From the NCBI GenBank assembly GCA_026393975.1, contig JAPKZD010000005.1:1-64000 (forward strand): a stretch of DNA of 64,000 nucleotides, read 5' to 3'. Made by a program: the position numbers and the translations under genes. Shown in pieces: positions 1 through 60,849 of the stretch. The notes beneath the pieces are model-generated. The model saw only the letters and a list, made by a program, of their open reading frames with translations, was not told the origin of the DNA and made no database searches. The first letter of the stretch is position 1; the number at the start of each line of letters is the position of its first letter. This DNA comes from Candidatus Aminicenantota bacterium (GTDB lineage Bacteria; Acidobacteriota; Aminicenantia; Aminicenantales; Saccharicenantaceae).

Positions 1-673
1 GATCCCGGGAGCTGAACTGCCAGCGGCGATCATCACTCTGGAGACGAATCTGAAGGGTGTCCACCTGGACGAGATCCCCTGGAGCCGTTACCCGGTATCC
101 CTGGGGCTTGCGTATGGCGTAGCGCGGCTTCCGGCGGCGTTTCCGAGCTTCCTTGGCCCGGCGAACGTTGAGCGGTTCCACCAACACTCCCCGGTCCTTA
201 AGCCGCTTCATGACCCGTCCTACGGTGGAGGTCGAGACCCGGATCCCCTCTCTTCTCAAGAGAACCACGAGCTTGTCCTTCCCCCACCGGGGATACTTCG
301 TCCTGAGCTCAAGGATCCGGTCTTCGACCGGGACCGGGGTCAGGGGCTTCCGGACATGGTGGGGCCTTCGGCTGGCCGCTTCCAGGGTGGTTAAGTCATA
401 GGGGTCGAACCGGTTCTTCCAACGGTAGAAGCTGGCCGCTTCCAGGGTGGTTAAGTCATAGGGGTCGAACCGGTTCTTCCAACGGTAGAAGGTCTGAGGT
501 GAGATGCCAAAATGACGGCAAGTCAGCCGGGCACCCTCACATCTTTTGTAATAATCGAACCAGCGCAGGCGCCTGGCAGCTTCCTGGGAGATCGTCCCCT
601 GGCGGACCAGGGACCGGATGAACTCCGACCCCGGGATGACTGACCCGTAAATCGTTGATGACTTCGGATACAT
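1..673 (-). CDS. IS481-like integrase-core transposase, truncated by window edge
   Basis: Reading from ATG at 673 toward position 1 there is one open frame of 224 codons that leaves the window. The N-terminal part has a helix-turn-helix of the kind HFGISPQTFYRWKNRF (about residues 54-69). A second DNA-binding region follows (residues about 115-165, with WGKDKLVVLL). The start of an integrase/DDE core is seen as GDLVQVDT near residue 204. This order is typical of IS481/IS3-type transposases, but the catalytic D-D-E residues lie mostly outside the window. Residues 62-81 are repeated exactly as 82-101 by a 60-bp tandem duplication. Whether the element is active cannot be judged; the duplicated recognition-helix region suggests it may not be. 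Confidence 0.8.
   Translation of the reverse strand, partial: MYPKSSTIYGSVIPGSEFIRSLVRQGTISQEAARRLRWFDYYKRCEGARLTCRHFGISPQTFYRWKNRFDPYDLTTLEAASFYRWKNRFDPYDLTTLEAASRRPHHVRKPLTPVPVEDRILELRTKYPRWGKDKLVVLLRREGIRVSTSTVGRVMKRLKDRGVLVEPLNVRRAKEARKRRRKPRYAIRKPQGYRVTAPGDLVQVDTLQIRLQSDDRRWQFSSRD
371..490. repeat. Perfect 60-bp tandem duplication inside the transposase gene
   Basis: Positions 371-430 and 431-490 are identical. The unit is 60 bp (20 codons), so the transposase frame stays open and residues 62-81 (starting FYRWKNRFDP) are repeated as 82-101. Confidence 0.95.
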
Positions 674-35783: not shown

Positions 35784-37601
35784 TCAGATAACCTGGATGG
35801 CCTCGTCCCGCTGGGATTCGATGGCCTCGAACCGGCAGGCCTCCTGGCAGGCGCCGCACTTGATGCACTTCGTCTGGATGATGCTGTGCACTTCCTTGAG
35901 CGACCCGGTGATGGCCTCGGTCGGGCAGGCCTTCTTGCAGGACAGGCAACCGGTGCACTTTTCGGACAGGACGACGTAGCGGATGAGCTTGGTGCAGACT
36001 CCTGCGGGGCACCTCTTGTCGAGAATGTGGGCCTCGAACTCGTGGCGGAAATATTGCAGGGTGGAGAGGATGGGGTTGCCGGCCGTCTGGCCGAGGCCGC
36101 AGAGCGAGGCGTCCTTGCAGACCTGGGCGAGCTCCTCGAGAAGAGGGAGGTCGCTCTCCTTCCCTTTGCCCTCCGTGATGTCCCGGACGATCTCCCACAT
36201 CCTTTGTGTGCCCTCCCGGCAGGAAACGCACTTGCCGCAGGATTCGTCCTGGAGGAAGTTGAGGAAGTACTTGGCGATGTCGACCATGCAGGTCTTGTCG
36301 TCCATGACGATCATACCGCCCGAGCCCATCATGGCCCCGGCCGCGGTCAGACTCTCGTAGTCGATGGGCAGGTCCAGGAGCTTGGCCGGGAGGCAGCCGC
36401 CCGAAGGACCGCCGATTTGGACGGCCTTGAATTCCCGGCCCTTGGGGATGCCGCCGCCGATGCCGAAGACGACGTCCCTGAGGGTGATCCCCATGGGGAC
36501 CTCGACGAGGCCAGTGTTGTTGATCTTGCCGACGAGCGAGAAGATTTTCGTCCCCTTGCTCGATTCGGTTCCCAGCCCCTGGAACCAATCCGCGCCCCGG
36601 CGGATGATGTTGGGGACCGTCGCCCAGGTCTCGACGTTGTTGATGACCGTCGGCAGGCCCCAGAGCCCTTTCTGGGCCGGGAAGGGCGGCCTCTGCCGGG
36701 GCATGGCAATCTTGCCCTCGACGGAGGCGATCAGGGCTGTTTCCTCGCCCGATACGAAGGCGCCGGCGCCCTCGACGATCTCGAGGTCGAAGTTGAAGCC
36801 CGCGCCCAGGATGTCCTCCCCGAGGAGGCCGTTGTCCCTGGCCTGAGCGATGGCGATCTCGACGCGCTTGAGGGCCAGCGGGTACTCATGACGGATATAG
36901 ATGAAGCCCTTCACGGCGCCGATGGCCTTGGCCCCGATGACCATCCCCTCGAGGACGGCGTGGGGGTCGGCTTCGAGGACGGAGCGGTCCATGAATGCGC
37001 CCGGGTCCCCTTCGTCGCCGTTGCAGATGAGATATTTCGGGGTCCGCTTCTCCTTGGCGCAGGCGGCCCATTTCCTGCCCGTTGGGAAGCCGGCGCCGCC
37101 TCGCCCGCGGAGGCCGGAGGCGGAGATCTCGGCGATGATCGTCTCGGGCGTCATCTCCGCCAGGGCCTTGCCCATGGCCTCGTAGCCGTCGAAGGCGATG
37201 TACTCCTCGATCTTCTCCGGGTCGATCCGGCCGCGGTTGCGGAGGACGATAAGCCGCTGGTGCTTGAAAAACTCGATGTCCTTCATCTTGGGGACGGGCT
37301 GCTTCTCGTCCGGCGGGACATACATCAGCTTCTTGACCGGGCGGCCCTTGAGGAGGTGCTCCTCGACGAGAAGGGGGACGTCTTCGACCGTGAGAAGCTG
37401 GTAGAAGATACCGTCCGGCTGGACCAGGACGATCGGGCCCCGTTCACAGAACCCGTTGCAGCCCGTGGCCACGACCTGGACCTCGTCCTGGAGCTTGCGT
37501 TTCTTGATTTCCTTCTCGAGCGCCTCCTTGATCTTGAAGGATCCGCAGGAGACGCAGCCCGTTCCGGCGCAGACCAATAAATGAGCTCGGTAGTGTTTCA
37601 A
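35784..37601 (-). CDS. hndC: NADH-binding flavoprotein subunit HndC/HydB
   Basis: 605 residues. An N-terminal thioredoxin-like [2Fe-2S] domain (CAGTGCVSCG, TGCNGFCERGP) precedes the NuoF-like NADH/FMN domain (GLRGRGGAGFPTGRKW, CNGDEGDPGAFMDRS, GAGAFVSGEETALIASVEGK, NNVETWATVP), the glycine loop AVQIGGPSGGC (about 391-404) and the cluster motif ESCGKCVSCREGTQRM. Two C-terminal [4Fe-4S] motifs complete it (CTGCLSCKKACP, CIKCGACQEAC). This is the layout of HydB/HndC from NAD(P)-linked, often electron-bifurcating complexes. A 64-nt stretch of this gene is duplicated in inverse orientation in the operon leader. Confidence 0.93.
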   Translation of the reverse strand: MKHYRAHLLVCAGTGCVSCGSFKIKEALEKEIKKRKLQDEVQVVATGCNGFCERGPIVLVQPDGIFYQLLTVEDVPLLVEEHLLKGRPVKKLMYVPPDEKQPVPKMKDIEFFKHQRLIVLRNRGRIDPEKIEEYIAFDGYEAMGKALAEMTPETIIAEISASGLRGRGGAGFPTGRKWAACAKEKRTPKYLICNGDEGDPGAFMDRSVLEADPHAVLEGMVIGAKAIGAVKGFIYIRHEYPLALKRVEIAIAQARDNGLLGEDILGAGFNFDLEIVEGAGAFVSGEETALIASVEGKIAMPRQRPPFPAQKGLWGLPTVINNVETWATVPNIIRRGADWFQGLGTESSKGTKIFSLVGKINNTGLVEVPMGITLRDVVFGIGGGIPKGREFKAVQIGGPSGGCLPAKLLDLPIDYESLTAAGAMMGSGGMIVMDDKTCMVDIAKYFLNFLQDESCGKCVSCREGTQRMWEIVRDITEGKGKESDLPLLEELAQVCKDASLCGLGQTAGNPILSTLQYFRHEFEAHILDKRCPAGVCTKLIRYVVLSEKCTGCLSCKKACPTEAITGSLKEVHSIIQTKCIKCGACQEACRFEAIESQRDEAIQVI

Positions 37602-38520: not shown

Positions 38521-38589
38521 AGTCATCCCTCCAGTAAGTTAATTCGCTTGGCGGCCAGACAGCCGCGAATGAGTCGCGGGCAGGGCGGA

Positions 38590-38653
38590 GGCGGCATCCC
38601 TAAGGGCCGGCAATTCAAGGCCGTCCAAACCGGTGGCCCTTAGGGCGGCTGCC
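38590..38653 (+). pseudogene. 64-nt relic copy of hndC, inverted relative to the operon
   Basis: On the plus strand this reads GGIPKGRQFKAVQTGGP, stop, GGC, against GGIPKGREFKAVQIGGPSGGC in HndC (minus strand 36455-36392). Nucleotide identity is 58/64. Differences include three silent changes, E to Q, I to T and Ser to stop. Confidence 0.85.
38598..38645. repeat. 11-bp perfect inverted repeat bounding the hndC-like fragment core
   Basis: CCCTAAGGGCC (38598-38608) and GGCCCTTAGGG (38635-38645) with a 26-nt loop. Three of the six differences from hndC fall in these arms and create the perfect pairing. Confidence 0.9.
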
Positions 38654-45800: not shown

Positions 45801-45873
45801 GCCCCTGTCGTCTAGAGGCCCAGGACACTGCCCTTTCAAGGCGGCAACACGGGTTCGAATCCCGTCGGGGGCG
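45801..45873 (+). tRNA. tRNA-Glu (UUC)
   Basis: Acceptor GCCCCTG/CGGGGGC, anticodon loop CTTTCAA (anticodon TTC) on stem TGCC/GGCG, T-arm CGGGTTCGAATCCCG. CCA not encoded. It follows tRNA-Lys by 9 bp and shares its promoter. Confidence 0.95.
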
Positions 45874-46179: not shown

Positions 46180-46227
46180 CCTTTCAAGGCAGCAACATGG
46201 GTTCGAATCCCGTCGGGAGCGCTTCCC
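46180..46227 (+). pseudogene. Truncated tRNA-Glu 3' fragment, copy 2
   Basis: Matches tRNA-Glu from the anticodon loop through the T-arm and acceptor 3' strand (about 45 of 48), but the 5' half is missing, so it cannot fold as a tRNA. The stretch 46228-46326 after it shows no gene. Confidence 0.8.
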
Positions 46228-46326
46228 CCCGAGAAGAGTGATCTATTAGGATATTTCGCAGAAATACGCCTCCGTGTATGCTCCGGCGCATTTCTGCCTC
46301 CTCCGCTCGCTTCGCGAGCTCCGGGA

Positions 46327-59051: not shown

Positions 59052-59993
59052 ATGGACCGGAAAACGCTGTTCCGGGAAGCGTTCCTCGAGAAGATCGGAA
59101 CTTCGCCCTCTGAGAACGTGCCCCTTTCGGCCCTATCCAGCTTCGGCATCGGCGGGCCCGCCGACCTCTTCTTCGAGGCCCGCACGGAGGGGGAGCTCGA
59201 GAAGGCCGTCGCCCTCGCGGTCGAGGAAAAATACCCTTTTTACGTCATCGGCGGCGGGAACAACGTTCTTTTCGACGATGCCGGCTATCGGGGGCTTCTT
59301 ATCCGCAACCGCCTCGAGGGGATTGTCGGGGAAGAAGGCCGGATCCGCGTTCTCTCGGGAACGGGCCTTCCCGCCATCCTGCGGGAAGCCCTCTCGGCGG
59401 GGCTTTCCGGCCTCGAATTCCTGGCGGGGATACCGGGGACCGTCGGCGGGGCCGTTTACGGCAACGCCGGGGCCTACGGCTGGAGCATCGGGGATGTCCT
59501 CGAAACGGCGACTCTTCTCTGCCCGGGCGGGGAGCGTCGGACCATGACCCGGGAGGCCCTGCGCTTCGGCTACCGGGATTCGGCCCTCAAACAGGGGGGG
59601 GGCGGCATCGTTCTGGATACCGTCCTCTCGTGCTCTCCAGGGGACACCCAGACTTCTGAGGCCAAGATCCACGACATCCTCGAGAAGCGGCGGACCAAAC
59701 ATCCTCCCCTGGGCACGGCCTGCGCCGGGAGCTACTTCAAGAATTCCTGTTCCGCGACCGGGGAGAGGATCATGGCGGGCCAACTGCTCGAACAGGCGGG
59801 GGCCCGGGGCCTCGCGGTCGGCGACGCGGCCGTTTACGAGAAACACTGCAATTTCATCATCAACAAGGGCAGCGCCGGCTCGCGCGACGTCCTCCTCCTG
59901 GCCGAAGAGCTCAAGGAAAGGGTCTATCGGAAGTTCGGCGTGCGTCTCGAAGAGGAAGTCATCCACCTTCGAGCAGACGCTTCAGGGCCGTGA
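59052..59993 (+). CDS. murB: UDP-N-acetylmuramate dehydrogenase (UDP-N-acetylenolpyruvoylglucosamine reductase)
   Basis: 313 residues from ATG 59052. FAD-binding motifs LSSFGIGGPADLFFEART, VIGGGNNVLFDDAGYRGL, LEFLAGIPGTVGGAVYGNAGAYG and FGYRDSALKQ. C-terminal CAGSYFKNS has the catalytic Ser region (type II-like) and the late Glu region EEEVIHL. Second committed step of peptidoglycan synthesis. 3' end overlaps the convergent DUF2520 gene by 35 bp. Confidence 0.95.
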   Translation: MDRKTLFREAFLEKIGTSPSENVPLSALSSFGIGGPADLFFEARTEGELEKAVALAVEEKYPFYVIGGGNNVLFDDAGYRGLLIRNRLEGIVGEEGRIRVLSGTGLPAILREALSAGLSGLEFLAGIPGTVGGAVYGNAGAYGWSIGDVLETATLLCPGGERRTMTREALRFGYRDSALKQGGGGIVLDTVLSCSPGDTQTSEAKIHDILEKRRTKHPPLGTACAGSYFKNSCSATGERIMAGQLLEQAGARGLAVGDAAVYEKHCNFIINKGSAGSRDVLLLAEELKERVYRKFGVRLEEEVIHLRADASGP

Positions 59994-60849
59994 CCCGGCC
60001 CGCCGGCAATCCGCTTTTTTCGGCCAGCCGAAGGATTTGTTTCCCCATGACCAGGTAAACTCCTCTCGCATGGGGGTCGTCCCGGAGGGCTTCCAGATGC
60101 TTCCGGACGGCGGCGACATCCCCCCGGAGGATCGGCCCTGTCAGGGCCTTTTCCAGGCCAAGATTATTTACGTTCTGTAAAGTTCCTTGCACGAGGGGGA
60201 ACAGCATGCCGGCGGCGGCCTTCTCCCCGATCCCGGCCGCCCCGAGCATGACGGACGCCGTCCATTCCAGGGCGATCATGGCGTTCGAAGCCAGGCTGCA
60301 CGCGGCGTGGTAGAGCGGCTTGTCCTTTTCCGAAAGAAGAAGGACGTTCCCCCGGAGACTACGGACCATTTCTTCGGCGGCCGCGACGGCGGCCGGGTCC
60401 CCTTCGACGCCCCAGGTTATGCCTCTGAAGATCGATGCCGGCGCGTCCTTCCGGGGAAAGGACTGGACGGGATGGACCGAGGCGATGCGCGCTCCCCGTT
60501 TCCGGAGGGGCTCGAGGACGCGGGCGGGGAGGAGACCGCTCGTGTGGAAGACGAACCGTCCGGCCCACGACAAGCCGGCCCTCGCCAACCCGGCGGCGAC
60601 GCGGCCGACCGCGTCGTCGGGCACGGCGATGATGATGACGTCGCCCAGCCCTACCGTACCGTCCCGTCCTTCCGGGGAAAGGCCTGGACGGTACGGTAGG
60701 ACTTTTCCCTGGCCGATGATGCGGCGGCTCTCCCGGGCCGCTAGGGCGTCCTTGTCGACGATGGCCGCGGCCGTCCAGCCCCGCCGGACGAGCGCAGCCC
60801 CTAGCACGGTCCCGAGCCGTCCGGCGCCGACGATGGAGAAGCTCTTCAT
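59959..60849 (-). CDS. DUF2520/Rossmann-like oxidoreductase-family protein
   Basis: 296 residues. NAD(P)-binding N-terminus (FSIVGAGRLGTVLGAALVRRGW; VIIIAVPDDAVGRVA), conserved HPVQSFPRKDAP, and a helical C-terminal DUF2520 domain (HAACSLASNAMIALEWTASVMLG, GPILRGDVAAVRKHL). Probably a 6-phosphogluconate-dehydrogenase-fold reductase of unknown substrate. Residues about 50-67 are an extra segment encoded by a perfect 15-bp inverted repeat containing a copy of the HPVQSFPRKD-coding DNA in another frame. Overlaps the NYN gene as ATGA. Confidence 0.85.
   Translation of the reverse strand: MKSFSIVGAGRLGTVLGAALVRRGWTAAAIVDKDALAARESRRIIGQGKVLPYRPGLSPEGRDGTVGLGDVIIIAVPDDAVGRVAAGLARAGLSWAGRFVFHTSGLLPARVLEPLRKRGARIASVHPVQSFPRKDAPASIFRGITWGVEGDPAAVAAAEEMVRSLRGNVLLLSEKDKPLYHAACSLASNAMIALEWTASVMLGAAGIGEKAAAGMLFPLVQGTLQNVNNLGLEKALTGPILRGDVAAVRKHLEALRDDPHARGVYLVMGKQILRLAEKSGLPAGRVTALKRLLEGG
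60650..60700. repeat. Intragenic inverted repeat with captured 27-bp copy
   Basis: Arms CCTACCGTACCGTCC (60650-60664) and GGACGGTACGGTAGG (60686-60700) are perfectly complementary. The DNA at 60665-60691 matches 60444-60470 at 26 of 27 positions. Confidence 0.9.

Follow-up and report, generated by a model that had tools for sequence, protein, structure and literature searches.

How does a piece of a protein-coding gene come to stand twice within that gene, the second time in another reading frame and partly inside the arm of a hairpin? The case lies near the end of the 64,000-nucleotide stretch of Candidatus Aminicenantota DNA analysed here (the window), in a gene whose 296-residue product has a Rossmann-like domain and a DUF2520 domain. 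Two relatives of this genome, G004 and G010, carry the same tract. The features are as follows.

59959–60849, minus strand: host gene, DUF2520/Rossmann-like NAD(P)-binding protein, 296 aa; Pfam PF10728 (116 bits) and PF10727 (45.4 bits)
60444–60470, minus strand: source piece, encoding most of HPVQSFPRKD; a near-palindrome, GTCCTT(T)CC..GGAAGGAC, conserved in frame across the genus
60665–60691, minus strand: copy of that piece, read in a different frame and reaching 6 nt into the right arm; present only in this genome, G004 and G010
60650–60664, no strand assigned: inverted-repeat arm, 15 bp, perfect with 60686–60700; 14/15 paired in G010, 13/15 in G004
60686–60700, no strand assigned: inverted-repeat arm, 15 bp, perfect with 60650–60664
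60647–60703, minus strand: whole imperfect hairpin, 57 nt, with a 21-nt loop between the perfect 15-bp arms

The repeat and the hairpin

The copy lies upstream of the source within the gene, about 220 nt away, and matches it at 26 of 27 bases, with a lone mismatch at 60683; the match can be extended to 60438–60475 and 60659–60696, where 33 of 38 bases agree. An earlier note on this DNA had described a gene fragment copied within its own gene between the arms of a perfect 15-bp inverted repeat. The copy and its change of frame hold up, although the identity is not exact; the inverted repeat is precisely as described, but the arms do not fully enclose the copy, whose last six bases overlap the right one. 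The source is read as GTC CAG TCC TTT CCC CGG AAG GAC and the copy as CGT CCA GGC CTT TCC CCG GAA GGA, and with the two in different frames their likeness has no protein-level cause.

The mRNA strand of the 71-nt stretch 60640–60710 folds at −44 kcal/mol (z −5.9), and the hairpin folded as DNA has a z of −6.0. The source piece also folds on itself as a near-hairpin, with GTCCTT(T)CC pairing with GGAAGGAC, which is the setting in which template-switch mutations occur. Both the repeat and the hairpin exceed chance expectation: shuffling the gene 30 times gave no 27-nt direct match better than 21 bases, and 100 shuffles gave no perfect arm longer than 13 bp.

Distribution, direction and size of the gain

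The genus sample comprised 13 genomes including this one, in 12 of which the host gene was matched. Three of these 12 carry the tract: this genome, G004 (JADBLN010000121.1, 96% protein identity) and G010 (MEXZ01000033.1, Candidatus Aminicenantes bacterium RBG_13_64_14, 90%); it is absent from the other nine. A DNA search of all 13 genomes returned the tract in the same three only, together with an additional 26-nt match in G003 that proved to be the source position within its DUF2520 gene. The earlier note took the segment for an insertion rather than a part of the protein conserved across distant homologues, and comparison with relatives bears this out: all 29 of the other aligned homologues have the short form and lack the tract (7 of the 37 genomes with a gene match, for which no locus was fetched, were left out of the alignment, and G007 had no match).

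The interval between two conserved landmarks measures the gain. It spans 25 residues in the three tract-bearing genomes and, among the 29 other homologues, 17 residues in 26, 16 in two and 18 in one. Since about nine original residues were replaced by about 17, with the frame kept, the net gain over the usual 17 is eight residues (24 nt) and not the 18 or so first estimated. With 25 residues in three genomes against 16–18 in 29 others, the sequences place a single gain in the common ancestor of the three species, before their split. Conservation of HPVQSFPRKD, the source motif, across the whole genus shows that copying ran from source to target. The nearest insertion-free relative has only 75% protein identity to the host protein and the original junction bases are unrecoverable at that distance; consequently one step and several are not distinguishable, and the junctions and any microhomology are unreadable.

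Among the tract-bearing relatives dN/dS is about 0.2–0.3 (dN 0.022 and dS 0.106 for one pair; dN 0.049 and dS 0.178 for this genome and G010), and purifying selection thus acts on the gene. Its nearest solved structures, by sequence and fold, are 2i76 (TM1727) and 3d1l (BF3122, a putative NADP oxidoreductase). An AF2 model, built from a thin alignment of five sequences, has a mean pLDDT of 86. Residues 53–70 have no regular secondary structure in this model and lie between strands 49–52 and 71–74; the two 10-residue blocks there have pLDDT values of 73 and 64. The insert is therefore predicted to sit in a surface loop joining two strands.

Later history of the arms

The perfect pairing of the arms is probably a derived feature of this genome rather than a birth mark of the event, as judged from the less complete pairing in both relatives. 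If G010 is taken as the outgroup of the three, on the basis of protein identities, the variable arm codon was probably GGG in the ancestor; a later synonymous change to GGT would have perfected the arm in this genome, and GCG in G004 breaks the pair. This codon history indicates that the hairpin has not been strictly kept. Of the tract's 18 codons, that one alone differs between the three species; in the rest of the gene 74 of 278 do. This low variation does not show constraint on the tract, because the gene has 279 stretches of equal length and 18 of them vary no more.

Gene conversion was considered as a means of holding source and copy alike and is not supported: G004 and G010 have source changes that the copy does not share.

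Origin of the tract

The account that best explains the tract, and one that we consider probable, is a replication template switch combined with hairpin-templated copying (quasipalindrome mutation), the product being tolerated in the predicted loop. While replicating the Rossmann half of the DUF2520 gene in the ancestor shared by the three species, all of one Aminicenantes genus, a DNA polymerase would have left its template, copied about 27–38 nt of the near-palindromic piece some 220 nt away in the same gene, and then returned. Following this direct switch, or together with it, the new hairpin-prone segment may have templated its own complement by nascent-strand fold-back, giving arms with 14–15 paired bases. 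About nine codons would thereby have become about 17, in frame, lengthening the predicted loop by eight residues. That the insert was tolerated is suggested by the continued purifying selection on the protein. We infer the polymerase mechanism, the order of its steps and the neutrality of the insert from these patterns, whereas the copy, its arms, the phylogenetic distribution, the direction of copying and the single copy number are established by the sequences. The insert is genuine and old, is confined to one lineage and belongs to a known kind.

Two expectations of a local template switch could be examined directly. (i) A template lies nearby: the 26/27 source has nothing comparable elsewhere in the genome. 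(ii) The inverted repeat is improved. Source and copy differ at five of 38 positions, and the two differences in the left arm (60662 and 60664) both restore pairing, so that the inner arm goes from 4/6 paired in the source to 6/6 in the copy; likewise the arms here pair more fully than those of either relative, although all these numbers are small. The earlier note's proposal of a local, palindrome-generating template switch is thus retained as the best account of the DUF2520 tract. A point against it is that one switch would not yield both a direct and an inverted copy, for which at least two are required.

Other origins have to be weighed against this one. In Rickettsia, in-frame palindromic insertions are known, and the present genome contains REP-type palindromes and a REP-associated tyrosine transposase, so that a small mobile palindromic element (REP, MITE or Rickettsia-palindromic-element type) could have inserted in frame. 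Such elements are dispersed, however, and the tract is single in the 2.95-Mb genome, where it otherwise matches the source alone, 0.2 kb off; this excludes a dispersed palindromic element. The tract is likewise single in G004 and G010, and the other 10 genomes of the genus are without a copy, bar the G003 match to the source. Its sequence is unlike both REP families, the loop derives from the host gene, and inspection by eye reveals no target duplication at the flanks. Nor is the tract among the listed places of the genome's two palindrome families, the motif of the first of which is absent from the window. We regard a mobile origin as very improbable. Chance resemblance or misassembly is hardly credible: the contigs are of MAG type and GC-rich sequence favours chance repeats, but the tract occurs in three separately assembled genomes and the shuffled genes reached at most a 21/27 match and 13-bp arms, which together refute both.

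A different question is whether selection has maintained the hairpin, whatever its origin, for a structural role in mRNA or DNA, for example as a regulatory stem-loop in the coding region. The very stable fold (z about −6) and the near-invariance of the tract codons speak for such a role. The invariance is shared by the 18 gene stretches noted above, however; the sole variable codon of the tract breaks pairing in G004, and the other members of the genus have nothing similar to the hairpin. A known structured RNA is rejected, as Rfam reported tRNAs only over 38000–61300. Selection for structure therefore appears unlikely, and the tract illustrates how mutation can leave hairpins in coding sequences as by-products, without any regulatory role being required.

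The hnd leader and other repeats

The template-switch reading raises the further question of whether the event was an isolated one. The earlier note had linked it to a second local copy in the window, a fragment of hndC in the hnd leader, and proposed a process shared by the two.

36392–36459, minus strand: source piece in hndC (comparison case)
38586–38653, minus strand: the hndC piece copied in inverted orientation into the hnd leader, 61/68 bases; 11-bp perfect arms at 38598–38608 and 38635–38645

By its sequence the leader copy resembles the DUF2520 tract in being a local copy of a quasi-palindromic source with more complementary arms: the inner arms pair at 9 of 11 positions in the hndC source and at 11 of 11 in the leader. 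The copy is absent from the leaders of G011, G012 and G001, which have orthologous hndA genes (85–89% identical); by eye, these leaders and the hndC source have GGCAGCCG in common at one edge and TGCC at the opposite edge. The loci taken from G004 and G010 for this comparison contain a paralogue at 51% identity and are uninformative on the insertion. The leader transcript is antisense to hndC over 38586–38653/36392–36459, and an effect at the RNA level is possible.

The common signature thus stands, but a process special to this genome is unsupported: no third case was found in 800 kb outside the window. A scan for further local copies with inverted-repeat flanks, as the earlier note had suggested, gave 35 short local repeat pairs, none of them a gene-fragment copy with new arms. 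Counting as palindromic those pairs with arms of 10 or more, the first 400 kb gave 17 pairs, of which one was palindromic and looked by eye like an array of small hairpins, and the second 18 with six, all of the REP-type family; the seven in 800 kb are hence six REP-type repeat ends and one hairpin array. In a 400-kb sample of G003, two of 21 pairs had arms of exactly 10 and none had longer ones. The two window cases were picked by eye and so give no measure of rate. A special genome-wide process is accordingly not supported; generic template switching at near-palindromes explains both the DUF2520 and the hnd cases, and the DUF2520 tract establishes no new process. A recurrent process specific to this lineage, copying short near-palindromic gene pieces nearby and perfecting their ends into hairpins at a rate too low for the 0.86-Mb sample, strikes us as quite improbable. 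If real, it would account for the new protein loop in the DUF2520 gene as well as for the 68-nt antisense segment of the hnd leader.

Several other repeats were noticed. A REP-associated tyrosine transposase gene (L120:15618–16761) lies between near-perfect palindromes with arms of up to 28 bp, and the flanking palindrome has 24 match rows in the genome, on both strands. Another palindromic repeat, about 60 nt long and also dispersed (L075:6048–6112), has 27 match rows in the genome, several as facing pairs about 80 bp apart, and a weak copy at window positions 46251–46298. Close by, 46180–46228 repeats, at 92% identity, the 3′ part of a tRNA gene about 350 bp off (45801–45873); it looks like a tRNA 3′-end fragment, perhaps an integration scar. 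Window positions 371–490 are a perfect 60-bp tandem duplication, two identical copies whose length is a multiple of three. A cluster of small related hairpins at L072:13340–13480 includes two 39-nt copies of 87% identity, 77 bp apart.

Relation to known systems

The DUF2520 tract offers a clean bacterial case of a template switch lengthening a protein in frame, for which source, target, direction and phylogenetic placement can all be given, and the eight residues were added in a segment that otherwise hardly varies in length. Our literature search found nothing on inverted repeats in Aminicenantes, and we claim absence of this exact tract from print no further than that. Like REP sequences (PMC3733652) and the Rickettsia palindromic elements, the tract is a short palindrome, of which some lie inside genes; unlike these many-copy families, as they are described, it is single-copy.

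The likeness to template switching is closer. In Escherichia coli, as outlined in PMC7202029, imperfect inverted repeats are made more perfect by nascent-strand copying at quasipalindromes, seen with lacZ reporters and at a thyA hotspot. Here too the arms became more complementary from the near-palindromic source to the tract, but the tract includes a direct copy of 27–38 nt from about 220 nt away and is an evolutionary relic rather than an observed mutation. Insertions that create hairpins in RNA genes have likewise been ascribed to template switching (PMC8794818), and share with the present case a new hairpin formed through insertion and reverse-complement copying; those described there concern RNA genes, whereas this one lies in a bacterial protein-coding gene with a net gain of 24 nt. 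Homogenization of inverted-repeat arms inside protein-coding genes is reported, with the same attribution, in yeast (PMC8604942). The events described there are substitutions in existing arms and inversions of spacers, whereas in the DUF2520 gene a segment was gained.
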